20,381 bases of DNA from IMG/VR virus record IMGVR_UViG_3300037070_001813, positions 1 to 20,381 of that record, one strand, 5' to 3'. The notes under the pieces are model-generated. The model did no database searches, was not told the origin of the DNA, and was given only the letters and a program-made list of their open reading frames with translations. This DNA is from a virus. Shown in pieces: positions 2,887-17,258 of this stretch. The translations under genes and the position numbers were made by a program. How positions within the stretch are numbered: the first letter of the stretch is position 1; every line of letters begins with the position of its first letter.

Positions 2887-3582
2887 ATGACCGAGATCCT
2901 GCACCGCTCGTTCGAGGTGACTGCGGTCGAGGTCGAGGGCCGCACCGTAGATGTCCGTGTCGTCCCGTTCGGTGAGGTCGCAAGGGTCGCTGACCCACCC
3001 GACTTCGAGCCGTACGAAGAGGAGTTCGTGCCCGGCTGCTTCGACCACCAGTTGAGCGCCGCGAACCGCGTGCACGCGAACTACGAGCACGGCAAGGGCA
3101 TCTCGGACGTGGTCGGGCACGGCGTCTCGCTCAGGCAGGAGTCGGACGGGTATCACCTGACGTCGACGATCCACCGCACCAACAACGGCGACACGGCGCT
3201 CGAGCTGATCAACGCCGGCGCGCTCCCCGGCGTCTCCGTCGAGTTTCACCCGGTCAGGAACGTGAAGGCGGGGAACGTGCTGCAGCGTGTGCGCGCGAAC
3301 CTGCGTGGGTTCGCGTTCTGCCGCCAGGGCGCATTCGCCGGGGCGCAGGTGCTGGCTGTCCGTTCGGAGGACGAGGAGCCCACACAGACTTTGGACGCCG
3401 CGCTGATGCCGGTGGACATCGACCCGGAGCGCGTCGAGCGGTTGCGCGCCCAGGGGATCGTTCTGCCTGACCGCTACACGAAGGCGCACCCCGCCGAGGA
3501 CACCCCCGACACGTCGGGCACCTCCGATGACGACGGCACCCGCCAGACCGCCACGACCACTTCATCGGAGGGAACGGAATGA
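2887..3582 (+). CDS. HK97-family prohead protease (capsid maturation protease)
   Basis: This is a serine protease that cleaves scaffold segments of the capsid protein during prohead maturation. The 231 residues contain the U35/S78-like core: an N-terminal strand region (FEVTAVEVEGRTVDVRVVPF), the catalytic His in ANYEHGKG (His68), and the catalytic Ser in LPGVSVEFHP (Ser117). The strand RANLRGFAFCRQGAFAGAQV follows at about 137-154. Residues after about 160 are acidic and Thr/Asp-rich, probably a flexible tail removed or used in assembly. A GGAGGT ribosome site precedes the ATG. The last codon overlaps the capsid gene start (ATGA), so protease and capsid production are probably coupled. Family assignment is by motif and position. 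Confidence 0.93.
   Translation: MTEILHRSFEVTAVEVEGRTVDVRVVPFGEVARVADPPDFEPYEEEFVPGCFDHQLSAANRVHANYEHGKGISDVVGHGVSLRQESDGYHLTSTIHRTNNGDTALELINAGALPGVSVEFHPVRNVKAGNVLQRVRANLRGFAFCRQGAFAGAQVLAVRSEDEEPTQTLDAALMPVDIDPERVERLRAQGIVLPDRYTKAHPAEDTPDTSGTSDDDGTRQTATTTSSEGTE
3567..3573 (+). promoter_or_regulatory. Ribosome binding site of the major capsid gene
   Basis: GGAGGGA ends five bases before the ATG at 3579. The strength suits a highly expressed capsid gene. Confidence 0.75.
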
Positions 3583-4826
3583 ACGAATCACAGGCCGAGC
3601 GCACCCTGCAGCTTCGGGTCGACGCTCGCGAGCAGACGCACGGCAAGCAGGAGGAGCTGCTGCGCTCGCTCGGCACCGACACGCCGAGCCCGGAGCAGAA
3701 CGAGATGCTCGCCAAGTACCGCGGCGACCTCGCGTACTTCGACAAGGAGATCAACGACTGGTCGGAGCAGGTCGACGCCGACCGGCTCGCACGCGAGAAG
3801 TCCGACGAGATCCGTCGCCGCTCGAACGCCTTCCACGGCAAGGGCGACTTCGGCGAGGACGGCGAGCCGATCTACCGGACGCTCGGACAGGTCGCGATCG
3901 ACCAGCTCCTCACCAGCCAGAACCGGCACGCCCGCGCGCACGTCGGCACCCAGGGCGTCGCACCGGAGGACATCCAGCGGGCAGCCGAGCGTCTTTCCGC
4001 GCTCGAGCGGACACCGGCCACGACGCTTTCCTCGGACATCGCCGGGCTGACGCCGCCGCAGCACATCGCGGAGATCTTCCAGATCATCAACGACGACCGG
4101 CCGCTCGTCGAAGCCGCCGGCGTGAAGCGGAACTTGACGAACCTCGTCTACACGTACCCGCAGGTCGACGCATCGCCGGTCGTCGCCGCACAGGGGACGC
4201 AGAAGACCGAGGCAGGCAACACCGGCATGGACGTCTCGATGGTCACGAAGACCGCGACCACCTACCTCGGTGGCGGCAACCTGTCGTGGCAGGCAATCGA
4301 GTTCTCCGACCCGTCGGCGTACGACCTGTGGTTCCGGCTGATCGCCGCCGACTACGCGCTGAAGACGGAGACGGACGCCGCAACGGTCGTGTCCGCGTCG
4401 GCGTACCTCAACAACATCGCCAGCACGATCGCGACGTCCGCGACGTTCGCGCAGCACATGACCGCGGTCGGTGCCGGATACGCCGAGGTGTGGGCCAACT
4501 CCGGTCGCACCGCGAACGCGGTCATCATGGCCCCCGACCGGTTCGGGTACTTCCTCGGGCTGACGTCGGACGCGTTCACGCAGTTCATCAACGTGAACCA
4601 GGCCGGGATCGGGCCGCTGCGGGTCATCGTGTCCCGCGGACTGAACGCCGGCGAGATCATCGTCGGTGACATGAACGGGCTGCTCGTCGCGGAGAACGCC
4701 GGCGCACCCGTCCGGATGTTCGTGTCGGAGCCCGCAATCGCTGGTGTCGAGGTCGGCCTCGTCGGTGCCTTCGACGCCGCTGTTGTCGACGACGGCGCGT
4801 TCGCGCTGATCTCGACCGCCAGCTAG
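3579..4826 (+). CDS. Major capsid protein, HK97 fold with N-terminal scaffold (delta) domain
   Basis: This 415-residue protein forms the icosahedral shell. Residues 1 to about 85 are highly charged and helical (for example KYRGDLAYFDKEINDW at 46-61), as expected of the delta/scaffold domain that the upstream protease removes. After a linker, the shell domain runs from roughly 146 to the end: LTPPQHIAEIFQIINDDRPL (157-176) is the usual entry to the HK97 fold. A Gly/Asn-rich extended stretch with GTQKTEAGNTG fits the E-loop. Later segments LSWQAIEFSDPSAYDLWF, RTANAVIMAPDRFGYF and GLLVAENAGAPVRMFV fit the P- and A-domains. The start is fixed by the ATGA overlap and a strong ribosome site. A hairpin follows the stop. 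No cross-linking Lys/Asn pair can be assigned from sequence alone. Confidence 0.95.
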   Translation: MNESQAERTLQLRVDAREQTHGKQEELLRSLGTDTPSPEQNEMLAKYRGDLAYFDKEINDWSEQVDADRLAREKSDEIRRRSNAFHGKGDFGEDGEPIYRTLGQVAIDQLLTSQNRHARAHVGTQGVAPEDIQRAAERLSALERTPATTLSSDIAGLTPPQHIAEIFQIINDDRPLVEAAGVKRNLTNLVYTYPQVDASPVVAAQGTQKTEAGNTGMDVSMVTKTATTYLGGGNLSWQAIEFSDPSAYDLWFRLIAADYALKTETDAATVVSASAYLNNIASTIATSATFAQHMTAVGAGYAEVWANSGRTANAVIMAPDRFGYFLGLTSDAFTQFINVNQAGIGPLRVIVSRGLNAGEIIVGDMNGLLVAENAGAPVRMFVSEPAIAGVEVGLVGAFDAAVVDDGAFALISTAS

Positions 4827-4850
4827 GAGGCGGGGAACGGTTCAACCACT

Positions 4851-4888
4851 GTCGGGGGTCGGGTCGGTCTGGGAGCCCGGCCCCCGAC
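4851..4888 (+). terminator. Strong GC hairpin after the capsid gene; partial terminator or mRNA 3'-end element
   Basis: The non-coding stretch 4827-4909 contains an inverted repeat. The arm 4851-4863 (GTCGGGGGTCGGG) pairs with 4876-4888 (CCCGGCCCCCGAC) over 13 base pairs, one of them a G-U wobble, around a 12-base loop. No T-run follows, so it is not a classical intrinsic terminator. It could act as a partial terminator or as a 3' barrier stabilising capsid mRNA. It is the only sizeable gap between genes in the window, which supports a regulatory role. No promoter-like boxes were clear in the gap. Confidence 0.55.
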
Positions 4889-4896
4889 GCTGAAAC

Positions 4897-4902
4897 GAGG
4901 AG
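4897..4902 (+). promoter_or_regulatory. Ribosome binding site of the decoration-like gene
   Basis: GAGGAG lies seven bases before the ATG at 4910 and directly follows the hairpin at 4851-4888. The gene can therefore be translated without coupling to the capsid gene. Confidence 0.65.
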
Positions 4903-4909
4903 CAGATAG

Positions 4910-5338
4910 ATGGCGACCTACAACAAGTTCCAGAACTTCGTGGAAGACCTCGGGCTGGGCGTCCACAACCTGAACACCGGAACGCTCAACGTGTACCTGT
5001 CGAACGCCGCCCCGTCAGCTTCGGGTGACGCGGTGAAGGCGGACATGGCCGAGATCACGAACCAGAACGGCTACACAGCACCGATTGACACGCAGAACAC
5101 GTTTGCGGAGACGGGCGGCACCGCCACGTTGACTGGCACGAAGTGTGTGGTGACGGCGTCAGGGACGGTCGGGCCTTTCCAGTACGTGGTGCTGTACAAC
5201 GACACGCCGACGTCGCCGGCTGACCCGCTGATCGCGTGGTGGGATTACGGCTCGGCGCTGACGTTGGCGAACGGCGAGACGTTCTCGGTGAAGTTCAACA
5301 ACAGCGACACGACCGGGACGATCCTCACGATCGCGTGA
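4910..5338 (+). CDS. Conserved small virion protein, possibly capsid decoration protein
   Basis: The product has 142 residues, begins MATYNKFQNFVEDLGLGVHN and is rich in Thr, Asn and Gly with alternating hydrophobic residues, suggesting an all-beta fold. The body includes LNVYLSNAAP, VKADMAEITNQNGYT and PFQYVVLYNDTPTSPADPLI, then WWDYGSALTLANGETFSV near the end. I recognise this as a family common in tailed phages, usually encoded near the capsid or tail genes and often left as hypothetical. Placement directly after the major capsid gene, with its own ribosome site, favours a head decoration or other abundant structural role, but this is inference. No signal peptide or membrane segment is seen. 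Its stop overlaps the next gene start (GTGA). Confidence 0.72.
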   Translation: MATYNKFQNFVEDLGLGVHNLNTGTLNVYLSNAAPSASGDAVKADMAEITNQNGYTAPIDTQNTFAETGGTATLTGTKCVVTASGTVGPFQYVVLYNDTPTSPADPLIAWWDYGSALTLANGETFSVKFNNSDTTGTILTIA

Positions 5339-5484
5339 AGGACTGTTGCAAAGACCCGGCGAACCGCACCGAGGCCGAGCAGTTGCCGAACGGGGCGACC
5401 TTGCAGAAGTGCACGGTGTGCGGCTGCCGTCATTTCGAGCTGGCCGTCGACCCGGTGCAGGTTGGTGTGAAACTCGATGGCTGA
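5335..5484 (+). CDS. Small zinc-ribbon-like protein (49 residues)
   Basis: The GTG at 5335 overlaps the stop of the upstream gene (GTGA), and the frame ends at 5484, eight bases inside the next gene. The product begins MKDCCKDPANRTEAEQL and contains KCTVCGCRHFEL. It therefore has a Cys pair at residues 4-5, then a CxxC plus CRH cluster at about 28-34, a likely metal-binding knuckle. I recall very similar tiny CCKDPAN...KCxVCxxRH proteins in the structural regions of other actinobacterial phages. The function is unknown; binding of zinc and of a partner virion protein is inference. The frame is open further upstream to 5236, but that part overlaps the decoration-like gene and has no family resemblance. 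Confidence 0.72.
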   Translation: MKDCCKDPANRTEAEQLPNGATLQKCTVCGCRHFELAVDPVQVGVKLDG

Positions 5485-6751
5485 GGTCATCTTCACGGCG
5501 GAGGAGATCGCCGCGTTCCCGCAGGGCCCGCCCGGCCCGCCCGGTGGCGGTGGCGGATACCTCCCCGGCCAGCTCGTCCGGTTCGTCGACCCGCGAAACG
5601 GACTTGACGCGAACCCCGGCACCGAACCAGGACTCGCGAAGAAGACGATTCAGTCCGCGTACAGCGACGTCCGCACGTTCGCGGAGGCGACAGGCTCGAG
5701 CGAGGGCGGCCGACTCGGTGTCGGCACGATCCAACTGCTGCCCGGCGACCACGACGTCGGCGCGGGACTGTCGGTCGCATGGAACCGGCCGGCGTGCTTC
5801 CAGGGCACACGCTCGGGGCCGCGTGATCACGCGCCGCAGAACACCGCCTCGCGGGTCGTCTCGTCCGGCAACCCGACCGAGCTTGTCCGGGTTCAGGGGC
5901 AGGGCGTCGAGGAGATCACCCGCGGCATGTCGTTCGAGGACATCGCGTTCCGCATGAACCACACGGTCAACACGAAGCTCGAGCGGGTCATCTACGCGAA
6001 GCGGGTCGGGTACCTGACGGTGGAACGCTGCTCGTTCACGAACCACGACCTGAACACGAACCAGCCGGTCGTGGCGATCCACCACGACGACTCGAACGAC
6101 CCGAGCGGCGAGGGCGGCTGGGCGCGGATCCGCAACAACAGCGTCTCGCGGATGGCCCTGTACCGCGCGACCGGCGGGAACTTCAACCGCGGCCGGATCA
6201 GCGACAACGTCGTGTTCTACGGCGGCACCCTGCCGATGATCCAGTTGGCCGGGAACACGAACGGGCTCGTCTGTGACGGCAACAACCTCGAGGGCACCGC
6301 GACGGCCGTGGAGATCGGCCCGACCGGCGTGTTCACACAGATGACGTTCCTCGGCAACTCCGGGGAGGATCCGTCTACGGGGACGCCGCCGAACCCGTTC
6401 TACAAGTTCACGGGGTCGACGTCACAGTCGATCATCATCGGCGGCACCTGCTCGAGCGGCAGCTCCACAGGGTTCGGTGTCTGGGTGAACTTCGGCCCGA
6501 CCGCCTACCGGAACCTGGTGGTCGGCGTGTTCGACACGACCGACGTGTCCAGGTCGCACAAGCGTCGGGTGGTCGAGACGACCCATGCGGACAAGAACAC
6601 GCTGATCCCGATGAACGTCACGATCCCCACCTACACGACGGCGCATGTGACCGACCGCGCGTTCGACGCTGCGACGGTCACCCTCCAGGAGCTCGCGAAC
6701 GTGGTCGGCACTCTCGTTGCCGATCTGCGCGGTCGGGGCTGGGTGAAGTAG
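5477..6751 (+). CDS. Right-handed beta-helix, tailspike-like structural protein
   Basis: The product has 424 residues. After a short N-terminal stretch comes a tiny collagen-like run, GPPGPPGG (17-24), and a glycine linker. The segment FVDPRNGLDANPGTEPG (36-52) is the typical entry of pectate-lyase-like beta-helix proteins (a VDPxNGxDxNxG pattern), leading into KKTIQSAYSDV. The middle has many short Asn/Gly-capped strands (GYLTVERCSFTNHDLN, GRISDNVVFYGG, GLVCDGNNLEGTATAVEIG), as in stacked helix rungs. The C-terminal FDAATVTLQELANVVGTLVA, from about residue 395, looks like an amphipathic trimerisation helix. Such proteins are usually trimeric receptor-binding spikes or fibres and may bind or cleave polysaccharide. 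No catalytic residues can be named. The location between capsid and connector genes is unusual for a spike. Confidence 0.75.
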   Translation: MAEVIFTAEEIAAFPQGPPGPPGGGGGYLPGQLVRFVDPRNGLDANPGTEPGLAKKTIQSAYSDVRTFAEATGSSEGGRLGVGTIQLLPGDHDVGAGLSVAWNRPACFQGTRSGPRDHAPQNTASRVVSSGNPTELVRVQGQGVEEITRGMSFEDIAFRMNHTVNTKLERVIYAKRVGYLTVERCSFTNHDLNTNQPVVAIHHDDSNDPSGEGGWARIRNNSVSRMALYRATGGNFNRGRISDNVVFYGGTLPMIQLAGNTNGLVCDGNNLEGTATAVEIGPTGVFTQMTFLGNSGEDPSTGTPPNPFYKFTGSTSQSIIIGGTCSSGSSTGFGVWVNFGPTAYRNLVVGVFDTTDVSRSHKRRVVETTHADKNTLIPMNVTIPTYTTAHVTDRAFDAATVTLQELANVVGTLVADLRGRGWVK

Positions 6752-8192: not shown

Positions 8193-8957
8193 GTGGCTGC
8201 TCCTTCGACACGAAACATTGTTCCGCTTCTCCCGACGGGGGCAGCGCCCAACGACTACACCCTCGACTGTCAGCCAGGCACCTATGCGGTCACTGGCGCG
8301 TCGGCAACTCTCGCCCGAGGACTGTTCGTCAATGCCGAGCCAGGCGTCTACACGGTCACTGGTTCCAATGCGACCCTCGCACGGGGATTGTTCCTCGAAT
8401 CGTCCCCTGGCAGCTATGCGGTCACAGGTACAGCGGCCACCGTTCTCTATGGGAAGTTCCTCAGTGCCGACGCCGGTTCATACGCGGTCACCGGGACAGC
8501 GGCGACCACCGCTGCGGGACGGGTCTTCAACGCCGAGGTCGGTTCGTACACCGTCACCGGTCTGGCTGCCACCTTTGCGCTTGCACGCAACCTCTCCGCT
8601 GACCCCGGCGTCTATGTCATCAACGGTGTTGACGCTTCCATCGCGCTCGCCGGCGTGTTCGCTCTCCAGGCCGACCCCGGCGCATACACGGTCAGCGGTG
8701 CGAACGCCACACTTGCTCGCGGACTGTTCCTGCAGGTCGACCCTGGAACGTATGCGGTCACCGGGTTCGCCGCGACGTTCCTGCGCGCCCTGGTTGCGTC
8801 CGCCGACCCTGGCGCCTACGTCGTCACGGGTGTCGCGGCCAGCCTTGTCAAGGTCGGGATCGTGCATCTCGAGCTGGTCGGCTACCCGCCGATCCTCGTC
8901 AGCCACAACGGCGGCGGCTACATCCAGGCGATCGACCGAGTAGAGGTGGAGGTCTGA
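8193..8957 (+). CDS. Repeat protein made of nine 22-residue PGxYxVTGxxAT units
   Basis: The GTG at 8193 gives MAAPSTRNIVPLLPTG, and the 254-residue product is mostly a tandem repeat. The conserved Tyr falls at 31, 53, 75, 97, 119, 141, 165, 187 and 209, a period of 22 residues with one 24-residue step. The consensus is [D/E]-P-G-x-Y-x-V-T-G-x-x-A-T-L-x-R-G-L-F-x-x-x. A non-repeat cap, GYPPILVSHNGGGYIQAIDR, closes the protein near 230-249. Such regularly spaced Gly/Tyr/Val units suggest a beta-solenoid or a fibrous stack. Similar AGSYxITGxxAT repeats occur in phage tail or minor structural proteins. Its stop overlaps the connector ATG (TGATG). The role is inferred: an extended virion fibre, spacer or adhesin. 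Copy-number variation among relatives is likely. Confidence 0.78.
   Translation: MAAPSTRNIVPLLPTGAAPNDYTLDCQPGTYAVTGASATLARGLFVNAEPGVYTVTGSNATLARGLFLESSPGSYAVTGTAATVLYGKFLSADAGSYAVTGTAATTAAGRVFNAEVGSYTVTGLAATFALARNLSADPGVYVINGVDASIALAGVFALQADPGAYTVSGANATLARGLFLQVDPGTYAVTGFAATFLRALVASADPGAYVVTGVAASLVKVGIVHLELVGYPPILVSHNGGGYIQAIDRVEVEV
8272..8860 (+). repeat. Tandem 66-bp coding repeats (nine degenerate copies)
   Basis: Each 22-residue repeat of the surrounding gene corresponds to about 66 bases; one unit has 72. Fragments such as TATGCGGTCAC (near 8283 and 8412) recur at the expected phase, and TATGCGGTCACCGGG recurs near 8751. Variants of CTCGCNCGNGGACTGTTC recur after three of the units. 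The copies have diverged at the DNA level, so they are old duplications under protein-level selection rather than a fresh expansion. Confidence 0.7.
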
Positions 8958-9586: not shown

Positions 9587-10033
9587 GTGCCGACCACGAC
9601 GCAGAACGCCGACCTGTTGGACGCGATGGCAGACCAGATCCGCACGGCGCTCGCCTCGGTGACCGACGTCGAGGTTCAGGTCGAGCCGCGGATGGTGTCG
9701 GCCCCGTCGCCGCCGACGATCGACATGTACCCCGGCGACGTCTCGCGCGGAACCGACGCCGCAGCGTTCGGGCTCGAGGGCGAGTTCCTGTTCACGGTCA
9801 GGGCGAGGGTGAACGAGAACGACGCCGACGCGAACCAGGATCTGCTGCTCAACTTCATGGACGACGTCAACGCTCTTTCGGTCGCGGCGGCGCTGTATGA
9901 AGACCCCACATTGGGGGGGCTGGCGTCCGACATGGATTGCATCAACCCGACCGGCTACGTCCTGTACCCGTACGGGTCGGAGACGCTGCTGGGGTTCCAG
10001 TTCACGGCACGGGTGATCAGGTCGGACTCGTGA
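9587..10033 (+). CDS. Tail terminator-like / neck protein
   Basis: The GTG at 9587 directly follows the connector stop; the product has 148 residues. The layout is that of tail-terminator or minor neck proteins: an N-terminal helix (LLDAMADQIRTALASV, 10-25), strands containing PPTIDMYPGD and the segment EFLFTVRARVNENDADANQD, a long helix (LLLNFMDDVNALSVAAALYE), and C-terminal strands GYVLYPYGSETLLGFQFTAR. In siphoviruses this protein caps the tail tube and joins it to the connector. Its position right after the connector supports this. Sequence identity within the family is low, so a head-completion protein is an alternative. Its TGA overlaps the GTG of the first gene of the accessory cassette (GTGA). 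Confidence 0.72.
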   Translation: MPTTTQNADLLDAMADQIRTALASVTDVEVQVEPRMVSAPSPPTIDMYPGDVSRGTDAAAFGLEGEFLFTVRARVNENDADANQDLLLNFMDDVNALSVAAALYEDPTLGGLASDMDCINPTGYVLYPYGSETLLGFQFTARVIRSDS

Positions 10034-10674
10034 CGACGTTCGCGACAGACGTGCGGCTCGGGATCGAGCTCGGGATCGGCTGCTCCCCGGAGTGCAACCA
10101 CTTCGCGGGCCCGCTCCTGTCGCAGCTCGACTCGGGCAAGTACGACGTGTGCGCCACGATGCCGCTGCCGTTGTCACGCGAGGCATGGCAGGACGAGCAC
10201 CGCACCTCCCGTAAGCGCGCCTGGAAGGCCGAGCACCACGGGTACTTCGCAGCCAGGGTCAACCGCGACGAGTTCGAGGACGACGTCTGGGCCGTCAACC
10301 TGTCGCGCCCCGTAAGACAGGGCCGACCGATGACGGACTCGTACAAGGACAGACCCATGTATGCGCGGGAGAACGCTTCCTGTGCCCTCCACGGGGTACA
10401 TGCGTACGGTGTGCTCGACGGCCACGGCACGCTGGTCGCGTATCTGTGGATGTACCGCGCCGGCGACCTGGCGCTGGTGTCGCAGGTTCTCGGTCATGCG
10501 GCGCACGAGGACTTCGGGATCATGCACCTGCTGTTCCGTGAGGCGCTGACCGCCGAGGGACAGATCGCGCCGGGCGTCGCTTGTTACAACCGTTGGGACT
10601 CAGGGAAGCCGGGCCTCCGTCAGTTGAAGGCGTGGGTCGGGTTCGAGGAGACGAGGGTGGAATGGCTCCCGTAG
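10030..10674 (+). CDS. Putative acyltransferase-like protein (GNAT/FemAB-like)
   Basis: The GTG at 10030 overlaps the previous stop, and the product has 214 residues; the frame is open back to 9937 but that part shows no resemblance. Features: Cys-rich N-terminus (GCSPECNHF, 17-25), a basic helix HRTSRKRAWKAEHHGY (57-72), and the segment VNLSRPVRQGRPMTDSYKDR (89-108). A GNAT-like half follows: GVLDGHGTLVAYLWMYRAGD, LALVSQVLGHAAHEDFGIMH, then GLRQLKAWVGFEETRVEWLP. The end resembles the GNAT 'xxxYxxxGF' tail. I recall this RQGRPM-type protein in phage glycosylation-like cassettes. Acyl transfer to a sugar or protein is inferred, not shown. It opens a five-gene cassette and its end overlaps the next gene by 13 bases. 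Confidence 0.62.
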   Translation: MTTFATDVRLGIELGIGCSPECNHFAGPLLSQLDSGKYDVCATMPLPLSREAWQDEHRTSRKRAWKAEHHGYFAARVNRDEFEDDVWAVNLSRPVRQGRPMTDSYKDRPMYARENASCALHGVHAYGVLDGHGTLVAYLWMYRAGDLALVSQVLGHAAHEDFGIMHLLFREALTAEGQIAPGVACYNRWDSGKPGLRQLKAWVGFEETRVEWLP

Positions 10675-11159
10675 TTTTGGACGGCAGGCTCGGTGAGATC
10701 AGCGCGGAGGCGCGCGTCTACCCGGCGCACCTGTTGCGCGAGGGTGGCACCGGGCTGTGTCTGTTCGCGGCTCGTTTCTGGGGTGTGAACGACGCGATCC
10801 ACATGGCGCGTCAGATTATGGCCGTCGACCTCGTCGATACCAGCCCGCGCGTAATGGAGATGAGCAGGATGTATCGCGGTGGCGGTATGGAGGCCCGCGG
10901 ATTCTGTCACGACGCCTGGGCGTTCGCGGAACGATCGCAAGGAACCGACCGCCAGTGGGACGCGGTGAGCGCGGACACCTTCACCGGCGACCCCATGACC
11001 CGCAGCCTCGCATCGCTCGAGTTGTGGTGCTCCCTCGCCCGCGACGTCGTCACCGTCACCCACGTCCCCGGCGCACCCTACGACGTGCCGGACGGCTGGG
11101 AAGGCGCGCTGTTCCCCCGCAACGACCGTGTCAACTGGCTGGTGCTCACGCCATGCTGA
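10662..11159 (+). CDS. SAM-dependent methyltransferase-like protein
   Basis: The ATG at 10662, inside the end of the upstream gene, gives 165 residues; the frame is open back to 10581. The protein looks like a small class I methyltransferase: a modified nucleotide-loop region GGTGLCLFAARFWGVNDAIH (28-47), an acidic strand end AVDLVDTSP (54-62), an acid in FCHDAWAFAE (81-90), strand WDAVSADTF (99-107), and a later strand VVTVTHV. The classic GxGxG motif is absent, replaced by a GGTGL-type loop, so SAM binding is likely but not certain. It may methylate a sugar, a virion protein or another cassette product. It overlaps the following glycosyltransferase gene by seven bases. The coding call is firm and the activity inferred. 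Confidence 0.65.
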   Translation: MAPVVLDGRLGEISAEARVYPAHLLREGGTGLCLFAARFWGVNDAIHMARQIMAVDLVDTSPRVMEMSRMYRGGGMEARGFCHDAWAFAERSQGTDRQWDAVSADTFTGDPMTRSLASLELWCSLARDVVTVTHVPGAPYDVPDGWEGALFPRNDRVNWLVLTPC

Positions 11160-11743
11160 CCCCCGACAAGGTGACCGCGTGTCTCGTTACCCGCGGCGAC
11201 CAGCCCGAACAGCTCGAGCGGATCATCGCGACGCTGCCCTATGACGAGATCATCGTCTGGGACAACTCGCACGCGCGCGACCTGAAGACCGCCGGCCGCT
11301 ACCAGGCGATGCTCGCTGCGAAACACGACGTCGTCTACTTCCAGGACGACGACACCCTCTTTCGGATGCACGCGGAACTGGTGCTCGAGTACGAGCCCGG
11401 AACGATCACGGCGGTGTATGGGCATGGGGAGAACGACGGCGGCTACGGCGACCTGCCGCTGGTCTGCGGTGGAGCATTGGCAGACCGGGGCGCGGTGCTC
11501 GAGGGGATGAGACGCTACCGCGACGAGCCGCTGTCGGACTGGCCCGACGAGGATCTTTACTACGCCGACTTCGCGATCGGCGTGCTGACACCGCACAAGC
11601 ACGTGCGGTTGCCGTTCGAGATCAACATGGAGATCGCACAGCACCCGTCCCGCCTGTGCAACCAGCCGTGGGCGGCGGACGCGAAACGACGGGTGACGGA
11701 ACGAGCACGGGCGATCAGGGACGGTGCGCTATCCGTCGCGTAG
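11153..11743 (+). CDS. GT-A type glycosyltransferase-like protein
   Basis: The ATG at 11153 gives 196 residues (the frame is open back to 10757). The N-terminus VTACLVTRGDQPEQLERIIA (7-26) is the start of a GT-A nucleotide-sugar fold, followed by DEIIVWDNSHARDL (31-44). The metal-binding DxD-type motif is VVYFQDDDTLF (60-70, acids 65-67). Later parts fit an acceptor-side region: VCGGALADRGAVLEGM and DWPDEDLYYADFAIGV, the latter with an acidic cluster that could hold a catalytic base. It is shorter than many GT2 enzymes. It probably transfers a sugar from an NDP-sugar to a virion or cell-wall acceptor, with donor and acceptor unknown. The C-terminal about 30 residues overlap the open frame of the next gene. 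Confidence 0.75.
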   Translation: MLTPDKVTACLVTRGDQPEQLERIIATLPYDEIIVWDNSHARDLKTAGRYQAMLAAKHDVVYFQDDDTLFRMHAELVLEYEPGTITAVYGHGENDGGYGDLPLVCGGALADRGAVLEGMRRYRDEPLSDWPDEDLYYADFAIGVLTPHKHVRLPFEINMEIAQHPSRLCNQPWAADAKRRVTERARAIRDGALSVA

Positions 11744-12486
11744 GCCCATTCGGCCACGACGACCTCCTCGACCTCGACTCGCTGTACGCACGCGCCGACC
11801 GTGTGATCCCGATGCGCGACGTCTGGAAGGGAGACACCAACCCGCGCGCCATCGCTGTCCGGCACGACGTGGACGACAACGCTGGAGCCTTCGACACCGC
11901 GCTCCGCATGGCCGAATGGGAGTTCGAGCGCGGCTACAGCTCCACCTACTACCTGCTGCACTCGGCGGGCTACTGGAACGCCGACAACCTCGTCCGCGCG
12001 CTCACCTTCCAGGAACTCGGACACGAGGTCGGGGTGCATGTGAACGCAATCGCGGAATCGCTCAGACGCCGCAGGGCACCCGACTGGATCCTCCTAGAGG
12101 CACTGTCGGATCTGCGCTCGGTGGGCCTGAGAATCGACGGTATGGCCGCGCACGGGGATCCCCTCTGTCGTGACCGGGAGGGCCGGGTCAGGTTCGTCAA
12201 CGATGAGATGTTCCTCGAGTCACGCCGCCCGTCGATGGGCTCCGCGACCCGCACCGTCACCCACAAGAAGACGACGGTGATGCTGGAGCCGCAGCCGCGC
12301 GCGAACTACCACCTTTCGTACGACGCGTCATGGCTGTCTCGGGGCGACTACCTGTCGGACTCGGGGCATGTGTGGTCGCAGGAGTTCGACCATGTGTGCC
12401 GTCACTGGCCGAAGCACGGGCAGCTGCACATGCTGGTTCACCCGGACTGGTGGGTCGGCGCGTTCCCGATGGCGGTCGCCGCATGA
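11656..12486 (+). CDS. Polysaccharide deacetylase-superfamily (NodB-like) protein
   Basis: The product has up to 276 residues from GTG 11656; the true start is uncertain (GTG 11668 also possible), and either start overlaps the upstream gene by more than 70 bases. Motifs of the deacetylase fold are clear: AVRHDVDD (67-74), the RHDVD form of motif 1; STYYLLHSAGYW (96-107); LGHEVGVHVNA (121-131), the His motif; MAAHGDP (163-169); and LHMLVHPDWW (257-266), the C-terminal His. These would place a metal and an acid/base His, so a hydrolase acting on N-acetylated sugar is plausible. The substrate is unknown. It lies between two glycosyltransferases, which suits removal of an acetyl group from a transferred sugar. 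Its stop overlaps the next ATG (ATGA). Confidence 0.72.
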   Translation: MQPAVGGGRETTGDGTSTGDQGRCAIRRVGPFGHDDLLDLDSLYARADRVIPMRDVWKGDTNPRAIAVRHDVDDNAGAFDTALRMAEWEFERGYSSTYYLLHSAGYWNADNLVRALTFQELGHEVGVHVNAIAESLRRRRAPDWILLEALSDLRSVGLRIDGMAAHGDPLCRDREGRVRFVNDEMFLESRRPSMGSATRTVTHKKTTVMLEPQPRANYHLSYDASWLSRGDYLSDSGHVWSQEFDHVCRHWPKHGQLHMLVHPDWWVGAFPMAVAA

Positions 12487-13226
12487 GCCTCTGGTTCATC
12501 GTGCCGGCGCACGGCCGGGTCGAGCTCGCACGCATCTGCCTCACCCAGCTACGCCGAACCTGTGACGCGCTCGAGGACGAAGGCATCCGTGCGTCCGCCG
12601 TAGTGGTCGCAGACGACGAGAACCTGGACACCGCCCGCGACCTCGGGTTTGCGTGGGTGCGCCGTGACAACCGGTTCGTGTCGCGCAAGTTCAACGACGG
12701 GATCCAGTTGGCGTGCGACCCGCAGTTCAACCCTCACCCGGTCGAGTTCGTCGTGCCCTGCGGCTCCGACGACTTCGTCGACTGGCGACTGTTCCACAAC
12801 CTGCCGTCGCAGAACACCGTCGTCGGGTTCCAGCGGATGTCGTTCGTCCGCGAGGACGGCGCCGAACTGACGGTCAGGAAGATCAACACGGAGGGCGGCT
12901 GCGGGATCCGCATCTGGCCCCGTCACCTGATGGCCGCAACCGGCTACAGGCCCGCCGATGAGGACAGACCCCGCGGCTGCGACACCTCGATCCTCGTGAA
13001 CACCCGGCGCGCGTTCCCCGACATGCGGGTGGAGCACCGCGACCTGGATCCGCTGCAGATCGTGGACTGGAAGTCGACCGGCGCGAACCTGAACCCGTAC
13101 GACGCGCTTCGCCGCCACAAGTCCGAGCTTCAGCGTGACCCGTTCCAGGTGCTCGACGGCCGCTACCCGCGGGAGGCGTTGCGGGAGATGCAGGATCACT
13201 ACTGCCGGACACTGGTGCCCGCGTGA
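12483..13226 (+). CDS. Family 2-like glycosyltransferase
   Basis: The ATG at 12483 overlaps the deacetylase-like stop; 247 residues. It begins with a typical GT-A strand-loop, MSLWFIVPAHGRVELARICL, then VVVADDENLDTARDLGFAWV (41-59 region), the phrase RRDNRFVSRKFNDGIQLA (60-77), and the metal-site strand VEFVVPCGSDDFVDW (87-101) with SDD acting as DxD. Downstream GGCGIRIWPRHLMAATGYRP resembles the acceptor loop of GT2 enzymes. The C-terminal part (PLQIVDWKSTGANLNPYDAL and after) is basic and may be a helical extension. It is the second transferase of the cassette; a second sugar or chain extension is inferred. The stop overlaps the next gene (GTGA), tying the cassette to the tail operon. Confidence 0.8.
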   Translation: MSLWFIVPAHGRVELARICLTQLRRTCDALEDEGIRASAVVVADDENLDTARDLGFAWVRRDNRFVSRKFNDGIQLACDPQFNPHPVEFVVPCGSDDFVDWRLFHNLPSQNTVVGFQRMSFVREDGAELTVRKINTEGGCGIRIWPRHLMAATGYRPADEDRPRGCDTSILVNTRRAFPDMRVEHRDLDPLQIVDWKSTGANLNPYDALRRHKSELQRDPFQVLDGRYPREALREMQDHYCRTLVPA

Positions 13227-13856: not shown

Positions 13857-14303
13857 ATGGCGGCGTTCGACATCGACGGGCGGGAGTACCCGATCCCGTC
13901 CGTCTTCCAGCTCACGATGGGCGAAGCACAGACGCTGTTCGACTACTGCGGCTACACGCTCGAGGACTTCGTGCCGCCGCTGCCGGGTGTCGAGGACGAT
14001 CGTGTCCGCATGTTGCGCGACCCGGCGTTCAAGCGGGCGATGGTTCACATCGCCTACCAGCGAGGCAACCCGGAGCTCAACCGCGACGAGGTCGCGGCCC
14101 TGGTGGACGGGGTGCAGATGTTCGACATGGTCGCGGCGATGTACACGGACGAAGATGCCGACCCTACGCCGGTCTCCCAGAAGCAGCAGCCACCGCCGAG
14201 CGAACCCGCAACGCGTTCGAGCACAAAGGGTTCTGGGAGACGTTCGAAGAACACCTCGGAACAACAGGACGGGATCCCCGCACCTACTGGGACTACCGAG
14301 TAG
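13857..14303 (+). CDS. Tail assembly chaperone, short form (gpG-like)
   Basis: The 148-residue product starts MAAFDIDGREYPIPSVFQLT with a compact helical core to about 100 (MGEAQTLFDYCGYTLEDF, AFKRAMVHIAYQRGNPELNR, VQMFDMVAAMYTDEDA). The tail, rich in Gln, Pro and Ser (PTPVSQKQQPPPSEPATRSS), is low in structure. It lies between the major tail and tape measure genes, the classic location of gpG, which binds the tape measure and tube subunits during tail assembly. A -1 slippery site in its C-terminal part yields the longer gpGT form. Translation that does not slip ends at the TAG at 14301-14303. Confidence 0.85.
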   Translation: MAAFDIDGREYPIPSVFQLTMGEAQTLFDYCGYTLEDFVPPLPGVEDDRVRMLRDPAFKRAMVHIAYQRGNPELNRDEVAALVDGVQMFDMVAAMYTDEDADPTPVSQKQQPPPSEPATRSSTKGSGRRSKNTSEQQDGIPAPTGTTE

Positions 14304-14413
14304 GCCACATCTTGCCGGCGGTGCGCCCAGACGACATCGCAGGGATGCGACCCCGTGACCTGCTCGGCGCCGTGCTGCTGTTCGACAACCTCTATGTGAG
14401 GTCGGGCGACTAG
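13857..14413 (+). CDS. Tail assembly chaperone, frameshift fusion (gpGT-like)
   Basis: Slippage at AAAGGGT (14225-14231) fuses the first 125 residues of the short chaperone to 60 residues read in the -1 frame, 185 in all. The added domain starts FWETFEEHLGTTGRDPRTYW and ends RPRDLLGAVLLFDNLYVRSG followed by Asp. It has no start codon of its own near the junction and would be missed as a free gene. Its helical, charged make-up fits the T domain that recruits the tape measure or tube subunits. The stop TAG overlaps the GTG of the next gene. This arrangement is the well-known gpG/gpGT system of tailed phages. The site is read from sequence; its efficiency is unknown. Confidence 0.8.
14225..14231 (+). 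other. Programmed -1 frameshift site (slippery heptamer A AAG GGT)
   Basis: In the frame of the 13857 gene, ACA|AAG|GGT places AAAGGGT exactly in the X XXY YYZ phase, with X=A, Y=G and Z=T. Slipping one base back re-pairs both tRNAs on AAA GGG, and reading resumes at TTC TGG GAG, which stays open to the TAG at 14411-14413. No strong downstream pseudoknot was identified by eye. Confidence 0.78.
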
Positions 14414-14802
14414 TGGCGGTTCGGAAAGGGATCGTGGTGTCGGGGCTCGCGGACATGAACCGTGCGTTCCAGGTCGCGGACAAGGCGACCCAGAAGGAGT
14501 TCCGGCAGGCGCTCCGGGCTGCGGCCGAGCCGGTCAAGGTGGATGCGGAACGTCTGTCGCGTCTTCGGATCCGCAAGATCGGGCCGGACTGGTCGCGGAT
14601 GCGGGTCGGCACCACACAGAAGTCGGTGTACGTGGCGCCGAAGCAGCGCTCGACGAAGGTGCGTTCGCGGCGCCGTAAGAACCTGTTCGACCTGCTGTTG
14701 GATCAGGCGATGGAGCCGGCGCTCGACATGAACATCCGTGAGGTCGAGGACAAGGTGGATGAGGCGCTGACGACGGTCGGCCGTAAGTGGGAGAACGCGT
14801 AG
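14413..14802 (+). CDS. HK97 gp10-like minor head-tail protein
   Basis: The GTG at 14413 overlaps the chaperone stop (TAGTG); 129 residues. It starts MAVRKGIVVSGLADMNRAFQ with the helix VADKATQKEFRQALRAAAEP (the pattern 'GLxxLxxxLxxxAxxxxKxxxxALRAAAxPV' is typical of HK97 gp10-like proteins), then the segment VKVDAERLSRLRI. A basic strand-turn follows: VGTTQKSVYVAPKQRSTKVR. C-terminal helices are NLFDLLLDQAMEPALDM and EVEDKVDEALTTVGRKWENA. In many siphoviruses this family lies between connector and tail terminator; here it comes after the chaperones and before the tape measure, which is unusual. Its role in head-tail joining or tail completion is inferred. Confidence 0.78.
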   Translation: MAVRKGIVVSGLADMNRAFQVADKATQKEFRQALRAAAEPVKVDAERLSRLRIRKIGPDWSRMRVGTTQKSVYVAPKQRSTKVRSRRRKNLFDLLLDQAMEPALDMNIREVEDKVDEALTTVGRKWENA

Positions 14803-15935
14803 TGGCTGACCGCACCCTCGTTGTCAGGCTCGTCGGTGACGAACAGGATCTCCTCCGGTCGTACGCGAAGTCGGAGCGGGCCACCAAGAACTTCGGCAAG
14901 ACGACCGACCAGGTCGCGACCAAGTCGTCGAAGCGGCTGTCGGGGCTGGCGAAGGTCGGCGGCGGTCTCGCAGCCGGGTTCGTCGCAGCCGAAGGTCTGA
15001 ACCAGGTTCGCAACGCCATCAACGCCGCAGCCGAGTCTGAGGCCGTCCTCACCCAGACGAGGCAGGCGCTCGAGTCGACCGGCAAGTCGTGGGAGAGGTA
15101 CGGCGACCAGATCGACGAAACGGTCACGGCGCAGTCGCGGCTCGGGTTCGATGACGAGGCGCTGCTCGGGACGTTCACGAACTTCCAGCGGCAGACGGAG
15201 GATGTGACCGAGGCGCTGAAGCTGAACGCGCTCGCGATGGATGTGGCGCGCGGCCGGAACATCGACCTGGAGTCGGCGGCGAAGCTGGTGACGAAGGCGG
15301 CGGCGGGACAGAAGGGCGCGTTGACGCGGCTCGGGATCGAGGTCGACAAGAACGCCGACAAGACCGACCTGCTGCGGATCCTGACCGAGAAGTACGGCGG
15401 GTCTGCGGAGGCTGCTGCCGGTGATGCGCGGACGGCGAACGAGCGGTTGGCGGTGTCGATCGAGAACGTGCAGGAGTCGATCGGGACGCTGCTGCTGCCG
15501 GTCGTATCCGATCTGGCGACCGAGCTGGCCGGGGCGGCTGACTCTGCCTCTGTCGCGATCGCGAACCTACGTGATCTCGGCAAGGTGAAGATTCCCGTCA
15601 TCAACGTGCCGCTGAACTTCACGGTGCCCGGAACGGACACGAAGATCGGTCGCATCGTTGCGCGGGTGTTCGGTGAGACGAACCCGATCACCGGCCGCAC
15701 GAGCCCCATCGGCGGGCTGCGGACGATTAGGCAGGCAGGCGACCTGTTCCGGGATGACCCGGCCGCGCCGGCGAACACGCGGACGCCGATCACCAGCAAG
15801 AGTCTGCCGCCGATCGTGATCCAGAACACGATCCAGATCGACGGGAAGACGGTCGCGCTCGCCACCCGCCGGTACAACGAGATCGACAAGCGGTCGAACC
15901 CGTCGCAGAAGCGCGGCGGAAACTGGCGCAGGTAG
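14802..15935 (+). CDS. Tail tape measure protein (short)
   Basis: The GTG at 14802 overlaps the preceding stop (TAGTG) and gives 377 residues; the frame is open to 14787. The N-terminus MADRTLVVRLVGDEQDLLRS and the helical segment RATKNFGKTTDQVATKSSKR are typical of tape measure proteins. A hydrophobic Gly/Ala stretch, VGGGLAAGFVAAEGL (52-66), is followed by long amphipathic helices with AAA/LAxxxN patterns. The C-terminal part has strands ending PPIVIQNTIQIDGKTVALAT and a basic end. Length normally fixes tail length at about 0.15 nm per residue, which would give roughly 55-60 nm here, short for a siphovirus. No lytic or Zn-peptidase motif is seen inside. Its function in assembly and DNA ejection is established for the family. 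Confidence 0.85.
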   Translation: MADRTLVVRLVGDEQDLLRSYAKSERATKNFGKTTDQVATKSSKRLSGLAKVGGGLAAGFVAAEGLNQVRNAINAAAESEAVLTQTRQALESTGKSWERYGDQIDETVTAQSRLGFDDEALLGTFTNFQRQTEDVTEALKLNALAMDVARGRNIDLESAAKLVTKAAAGQKGALTRLGIEVDKNADKTDLLRILTEKYGGSAEAAAGDARTANERLAVSIENVQESIGTLLLPVVSDLATELAGAADSASVAIANLRDLGKVKIPVINVPLNFTVPGTDTKIGRIVARVFGETNPITGRTSPIGGLRTIRQAGDLFRDDPAAPANTRTPITSKSLPPIVIQNTIQIDGKTVALATRRYNEIDKRSNPSQKRGGNWRR

Positions 15936-17258
15936 ATGCCCGACGGCCGCGTCCTGATCGGGACAGGCAACGTCCTCACCGCGTCCCCGACCTGGACGCG
16001 CTACGACGAGCTCGCCGACTGCCGCTGCTCCGGCTACACGATCGACACCGGGCGCCAGTCCGAGTTCGACACGACCGACACCGGCAACGCCACCGTGTTC
16101 TTCTCAGACCAGGACGGCACGTTCAACGACGACGCCCTGATCGGCCGTCCGATCATGCTTCAGGTGCAAGACCCGACGACGGACGTCTGGGAGACGCAGT
16201 TCCGTGGCGTGATCGACGACACCGAGCACAACGTCAACCCGAACGGATTCGTCTCGAACGTGCAGGTTCAGTGCAAAGACATCTTCGACTACCTCGCGCA
16301 GACACGGTTCCTGCTCGGCACCCACGGAGACGTCGTGCCTGCGGGCGCGTCGGGGAGCATCTACTACCCGGAGGGGCCGGTCGCAACCGGAACCGGCGAC
16401 CCGGATGACGGTGGCCGGATCGAGTGGATCCTCGACGACGGCGGACTCGACCCCACCCGCTACGTCGTGTTCTCGGGGAACGTCGATGTGATCTCCACGT
16501 TCTACGACCCGGACGACCCGCTCCTCGTCGGGCTCCGCGACGCGTGCGACGCTGAGTTCCCCGGCATCGCGAACTGCTACGTGGACAGGTTCGGCCGGTT
16601 CGTGTTCCACGGCAGGTTGGCCCGGTTCGACCCGGACGGTGTCGCCGGCGCCGAAGCCAACTGGGACTTTCAGCGGTGGGAGGCAGCCACCCGCGAGGAC
16701 GTGACGGGTGACCGTGCGCAGATCCGGGCGTTCGCGTGGAACCAGCCGCGCTCGAGGATCGTGAACGCCGCGATCTCATGGCCGCGGGAGCTCGAGGACG
16801 GACGCAGGTTCCCCGAGGCGTTCAAGGGCGCGCAACAGTTCGAGGACGTGTCGTCGGTTGCGACGTACGGCTATCGGGGGATGCGGCCGATGGGCGACCT
16901 GATCATCAAGGAACACAAGACGAACCCGAGCACCGGGCAGCAGGAATGCCAGCTGTTCGCGGAGTTCTACGTCAACAACTACTCGGTGCCGAGAAAGAAC
17001 GTCCAACGTTGCACCCTGAAATCCGTCGGGCTGACCGAGACCTATGCCGACCCGACGTGGGCACTGATGTTGCAGGCGGACATCTCGGACATCATCGCGC
17101 TCACCATCGACGAGGCCGACCTCGCAGACGAGGACTTCTACATCGAGGGGTTCTCTAAAACGGTGCGGGTGATGAGCCCAGACATGGACTACGTCGAGGT
17201 GACACCGAACCTAACGCCGTTCGCCTACTACACCGACAACGTGTTCGAGGGAACCTAG
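15936..17258 (+). CDS. Minor tail protein, Dit/Tal-like tail-tip hub
   Basis: The ATG at 15936 abuts the tape measure stop; 440 residues. Early strands carry a signature shared by actinophage minor tail proteins: YTIDTGRQSEFDTTDTGNAT and VFFSDQDGTFND, then GRPIMLQVQDPTT, i.e. a 'GRQ-E-D-T-GxAT---xDxDGxF' pattern at the tail end. A middle region with RIEWILDDGGLDPTRYVVFS and ISTFYDPDDPLLVGLRDACD resembles the hub of Gp37/Tal-like proteins, and the C-terminal part (STGQQECQLFAEFYVNNYSV, LTETYADPTW) continues this. It likely forms the distal tail or baseplate hub behind which fibres attach. No cell-wall hydrolase is visible. It follows the tape measure gene as expected. Confidence 0.8.
   Translation: MPDGRVLIGTGNVLTASPTWTRYDELADCRCSGYTIDTGRQSEFDTTDTGNATVFFSDQDGTFNDDALIGRPIMLQVQDPTTDVWETQFRGVIDDTEHNVNPNGFVSNVQVQCKDIFDYLAQTRFLLGTHGDVVPAGASGSIYYPEGPVATGTGDPDDGGRIEWILDDGGLDPTRYVVFSGNVDVISTFYDPDDPLLVGLRDACDAEFPGIANCYVDRFGRFVFHGRLARFDPDGVAGAEANWDFQRWEAATREDVTGDRAQIRAFAWNQPRSRIVNAAISWPRELEDGRRFPEAFKGAQQFEDVSSVATYGYRGMRPMGDLIIKEHKTNPSTGQQECQLFAEFYVNNYSVPRKNVQRCTLKSVGLTETYADPTWALMLQADISDIIALTIDEADLADEDFYIEGFSKTVRVMSPDMDYVEVTPNLTPFAYYTDNVFEGT

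Follow-up and report, generated by a model that had tools for sequence, protein, structure and literature searches.

The gpG and gpGT proteins of phage lambda, in which the slip site is GGGAAAG, consist of a short 0-frame protein and its -1 fusion to a second frame that has no start of its own, encoded just upstream of the tape measure region, and the locus described here has the same arrangement. The two systems differ in that there is no sequence-family match between them, in that the sites found here are CCCTTTG, CCCCCCG or C_CCT_NNN and not lambda's GGGAAAG, and in that, unlike in lambda, a neck-like gene lies between GT and the tape measure gene in 14 of our 15 records. A -1 frameshift in the genes of tail assembly chaperones is well known in tailed phages, as described in two reports (PMC5009743; PMC10885494), and the lambda G/GT type of frameshift is the best reading of the present locus. 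The mean distances from slip site to 0-frame stop given in the second report are 26 and 36 nt, as compared to 105-195 nt in the records analyzed here. For the PRFect program, the corresponding report (PMC10274946/PMC10885494) describes chaperone frameshifts that lack an XXXYYYZ motif, as well as 22 annotated phages with no PRFect motif in the overlap; PRFect sites come from annotation, whereas the site reported here was fixed by comparison with relatives, and its local form, CCCTACG, corresponds to no motif among the eight backward ones given there, as judged by motif names alone. An actinobacterial phage, Mycobacterium phage MooMoo (NC_051721), has an annotated joined chaperone before its tape measure gene, but the MooMoo G protein has no detectable similarity to the one considered here (hhalign probability 0.2%) and its second frame stands in the +1/-2 and not the -1 register. 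The joined MooMoo gene (4572-5493) also has no canonical -1 heptamer near its 0-frame stop. Our literature search, which covered few subscription papers, returned no title or abstract on the slip site described below, and the papers that it gave for CCCTTTG concern, by title and abstract, a phage small RNA. The new elements here are the lineage, the long distance that separates a C_CCY site from the 0-frame stop downstream of it and, in one branch, a possible decay of this C_CCY site.

The DNA analyzed, which we call the window, is the whole of a 20,381-base IMG/VR virus record (IMGVR_UViG_3300037070_001813), and its genes are ordered as terminase, portal, protease/capsid, tail terminator, tail tube, G/GT locus, neck-like and tape-measure-like (Table 1). 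The tail tube and tape measure genes of the window were named via relatives. The tube protein has no family match of its own, and its homologue in record L004 matches phrog_1407 (major tail protein, E 5e-4); the tape-measure-like protein likewise has no tape measure match of its own, and the proteins at its position in L020, L010 and L013 have tape measure PHROGs as matches, with best E-values of 4e-24, 8e-25 and 1e-29. The -1 frame stays open between 13853 and 14413, and its TAG stop (14411-14413) overlaps the GTG at 14413 that starts the neck-like gene. It has no ATG, GTG or TTG before 14312, so that the first-pass annotation was right to describe a second open frame without its own start, ending in a TAG that overlaps the next gene. 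Judged from sequence comparison, the locus likely encodes the tail assembly chaperones of an uncultured siphophage-like virus, and a -1 slip at 14163-14165 would join 103 residues of G to the 82 residues of T in a GT fusion of 185 aa.

Table 1. Features of the G/GT locus and its neighbors in the window
Feature	Coordinates	Strand	Basis or remark
Major tail (tube) protein, 139 aa	13433..13852	+	Directly 5' of G; homologues in L003-L008
G, short tail assembly chaperone, 0 frame, 148 aa	13857..14303	+	Alignment of 14 records; predicted fold
C_CCT_ACG, inferred -1 slip site	14162..14168	+	Aligned across 15 records
T, -1-frame C-terminal half, 82 aa plus TAG	14165..14413	+	Alignment of 15 records; synonymous-change pattern against L009; all-helical model
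5' arm of 11-bp perfect stem	14172..14182	+	Partly conserved in group A; putative function
AAAGGGT heptamer, probably a chance match	14225..14231	+	Unconserved; change in L009 is T-synonymous
3' arm of 11-bp stem, 48-nt loop	14231..14241	+	Pairs with 14172..14182
Tail completion/Neck1-like protein, 129 aa	14413..14802	+	phrog_5, E 2e-4; start overlaps T stop
Short tape-measure-like protein, 377 aa from GTG 14802	14802..15935	+	ORF listed from 14787; positional counterparts

With the fused protein, the tube protein and alignments of T as scan queries, we found both halves of the fusion encoded in another 14 distinct records: L009 (identical to L002, L003 and L019), L010 (L022, L029), L011 (L021, L028), L012, L013 (L023), L014, L015, L016 (L005), L017 (L004, L024), L018, L020 (L027), L025, L026 and L030. 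Group A comprises the window, L009, L010, L011 and L020; group B comprises L012, L014, L018, L025 and L026; and group C comprises L013, L015, L016 and L017. Three other records (L006, L007 and L008), which share the tube protein alone and in which it is followed by other genes or by the end of the contig, were excluded from the counts. The closest relative is L009, with a GT that is 93-94% identical to that of the window. No relatives were found in the genome contig scans, in the viral scan with the 15936-17258 protein, or in the "phages" collection when it was queried by tblastn with the tube protein, GT, or G and T from four relatives. The second half of the fusion lies in the -1 frame of the first in all 15 records. 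A tube homologue is found 5' of G/GT in 12 of them (L015 is cut off there, and none was seen in L010 or L030), a tape-measure-sized ORF lies 3' of GT in all 15, with tape measure family matches in three of the five scanned, and a Neck1-like gene occupies the equivalent place in 14. The exception is L030, where the phrog_5 neck/tail-completion-like gene lies before the chaperone locus and not between it and the tape measure gene. The earlier proposal of a gpG/gpGT-like -1 fusion is thus well supported by the retention of both proteins in a -1 relation in 15 records, the lack of a nearby start and the fitting gene order, and an uncultured phage would very probably make a longer, second tail-building helper protein by a one-base slip of the ribosome.

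The position of that slip is common to the relatives, in which both frames are conserved with no alternative start. A C_CC(C/T) sequence occurs at one upstream junction in all 15 records, and a canonical heptamer stands exactly there in 11 (eight CCCTTTG, two CCCCCCG and, in L030, CCCCCCC), although the records are related to one another, the five of group B closely, and do not amount to 11 independent cases, so that a binomial value overstates the result. Elsewhere in the 0-frame ORFs, canonical heptamers number five per 2,476 codons. Measured from the other side, a canonical heptamer precedes the FW codons of the T frame (WW in two records) by approximately 72-87 nt in 10 of the 14 records that have this motif, which L030 lacks. 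In 11 of 15 records the T frame is closed by a stop codon 3-9 nt before the site, which means that the shift must occur at or after the site and not earlier, and T homology resumes within a few codons of it, as LPE(A/R)A in the window's subgroup and as RRIIA(D/E) and similar sequences in the others. The four records without a canonical heptamer have C_CCT_CCG (L011), C_CCT_CCT (L016) or C_CCT_ACG (the window and L009) at this place, and from this alignment we infer that the C_CCT_ACG of the window is a degenerate form of the conserved slip site.

In the mechanism that we propose, most ribosomes would translate the locus in the 0 frame to give G, and a minority would slip back by one base with CCT in the P site (14163-14165) re-pairing as CCC (14162-14164), so that the next codon read would be TAC (14165-14167) and translation would go on in the -1 frame to give GT. 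For the C_CCT_TTG and C_CCC_CCG of relatives, this would be ordinary tandem slippage. In the window, the tRNA-Pro that reads CCT could re-pair with CCC, but one would not expect the tRNA for ACG to pair with TAC, and the shift would then depend on the P-site tRNA by itself. One possible history, which we offer tentatively, is that the tandem heptamer has decayed to C_CCU_ACG in the window's lineage while the fusion frame is still selected, that a single P-site re-pairing of tRNA-Pro suffices, perhaps helped by an 11-bp stem, and that the CCCTCCG and CCCTCCT of relatives represent intermediates. The degeneracy of C_CCT_ACG, together with the fact that T homology within group A becomes firm no earlier than the LPE codons at 14174, leaves some room for a genuine -1 fusion in which the window's lineage shifts elsewhere in 14166-14175 or without P-site re-pairing; we regard this as unlikely, because C_CC(C/T) is common to all 15 records at this very point and no canonical in-phase site is present between 14166 and 14175.

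In pairwise comparisons of the stretch from the slip site to the FW codon, a test that covers groups A, B and C with L030 left out, T is the most conserved of the three frames in every subgroup, with identities in the T, 0 and third frames of.52/.33/.43 in group A,.92/.82/.84 in group B and.42/.31/.27 in group C; in group A, the BLOSUM score of the third frame (1.80) comes close to that of T (2.06). The window and L009 differ before 14162 by 31 changes, 21 of which are silent in the 0 frame (P 1e-7). The interval 14166-14227 has four changes only, three of them synonymous in T (P 0.055) and none in the 0 frame. Of the 15 changes between 14231 and 14300, 9 are silent in the -1 frame (P 0.001), as are 11 of 12 after 14304 (P 5e-6). 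The heptamer AAAGGGT does occur at 14225-14231 as the first-pass annotation stated, phased A_AAG_GGT in the 13857-14303 frame. It is the only in-phase XXXYYYZ of the window's G frame, and at 69 nt it is closer to the 0-frame stop than the C_CCT site, which speaks for a shift there that would give ...SSTKG-FWETF.... We nonetheless consider such a shift very unlikely. The heptamer is AAGGGGT in the 93%-identical relative, and no other record among the 15 has an in-phase heptamer at this place. The first-pass annotation had named loss of the heptamer from relatives with both frames as refuting its claim, and this is what is observed, with AAAGGGT in 1 of 15 records. The -1-frame protein (LPEAA...) is already conserved upstream of it, and the A>G change at 14227 by which L009 lost it is silent in the -1 frame. 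Taken with the frame comparisons above, this places the beginning of -1-frame translation very probably upstream of AAAGGGT. When the 45 codons of the overlap were shuffled, an in-phase XXXYYYZ appeared in 27% of shuffles, and a count over 22 of the window's reading frames gave a lower rate (4 in 5,800 codons). AAAGGGT is thus probably a chance match, and we have rejected it as the slip site. The tail-chaperone frameshift itself was very probably called correctly and its slip site wrongly, and the predicted junction ...STKG-FWETF... is to be replaced by ...DEDADP-YAGLPEAAATAER..., with the conserved site lying 63 nt upstream of AAAGGGT. That T might be a separate protein started within the -1 frame, or a decayed gene, is hardly credible, because the TTG at 14312 and the GTG at 14321, which do exist in the T frame and lend this no positive support, fall inside the conserved T core, because ATG, GTG and TTG are absent from the site to +128 in all 15 records and CTG, ATT, ATC and ATA are also absent from the window's T frame from 13949 to 14308, and because synonymous changes predominate in T relative to L009 (20 of 27 beyond 14231), which argues that T has not decayed.

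For a -1 slip at the C_CCY site, stimulatory elements were sought on both sides. The 11-bp perfect stem of the window begins 3 nt past the slip heptamer, and in L010 the equivalent stem has 10 bp, in L020 it has 8 bp and in L011 it is weak. T-synonymous recodings equalled the stem in 8 of 400 trials for the window, 37 of 400 for L010 and 215 of 400 for L020, and covariation among five sequences amounted to one pair changed on both sides, which is not above shuffles. Because the two arms encode the conserved LPE and FWE, their complementarity may be in part a by-product. Group C has strong local hairpins just past the site (at most 2% of 40-nt windows of the locus are as stable), of which only that of L015 is unusual in comparison with recoding (0 of 400 by stem), and overall folding energy was not below the recoded null in 12 of the 13 records tested. 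These results are suggestive of a stimulatory stem in the window, L009 and L015 only, and not of a general one. Of 14 records tested for a Shine-Dalgarno-like stretch upstream of the site, five (L020, L013, L015, L017 and L010) have a strong one, equalled by at most 5.5% of background, and it is absent from the window and L009, where 63-64% of background windows are as strong; as a stimulator it was accordingly rejected for the window, despite its presence in some relatives.

The conserved core of G consists of residues 1-103, that is, the part shared with GT, and the remainder is a Ser/Pro/Thr-rich, poorly conserved tail. The model of G (pLDDT 84) has a beta-hairpin followed by helices, and that of T (pLDDT 83) is all-helical. 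Neither protein matched the Pfam or PHROG chaperone families, and family searches with the neighboring genes were likewise poor in matches; the G model had no credible match in the PDB, and the T model had nothing credible in the viral library. A search with the G fold did return several viral chaperones as weak matches (best E 0.011, none at 0.001), among them the chaperone of Microbacterium phage BonaeVitae (E 0.11, probability 0.90). We infer a chaperone role for G and GT from the frameshift as such and from their position and architecture. If lambda is taken as the model, G would coat the tape measure protein, and tail-tube subunits would be recruited by the T portion.

The corrected junction changes the sequence of the GT protein and, with it, the target for mass spectrometry and the design of reporters. 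It also illustrates how choosing an in-phase heptamer near the 0-frame stop can mislead, and that in this phage group the true site can lie more than 100 nt upstream of the stop. The forms CCCTTTG, CCCCCCG, CCCTCCG, CCCTCCT and CCCTACG constitute a natural series for asking what portion of a tandem slip site a shift requires.

Several other features of the window were seen in passing. Its tape-measure-like protein (14802-15935) and that of L009 (5618-6766) have approximately 380 aa, as compared to 614-943 aa in the other 13 records, which suggests an unusually short tail. The region between the tail terminator and tail tube genes (10030-13226) contains approximately five genes that by eye resemble those for enzymes of acetyltransferase, methyltransferase or glycosyltransferase type, and a Pfam scan of the five ORFs in this block gave no match; L010 has at 3695-4444 a look-alike of window 12486-13226. 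The protein encoded at 8193-8957 carries several copies of a repeat of approximately 22 residues, PGxYxVTGxxATxARGLFL, as seen by eye in the translation. The named-phage relatives of the capsid protein (3579-4826) are remote and all 34 are mycobacteriophages, the best being MooMoo with 27% identity, hinting at an actinobacterial host.
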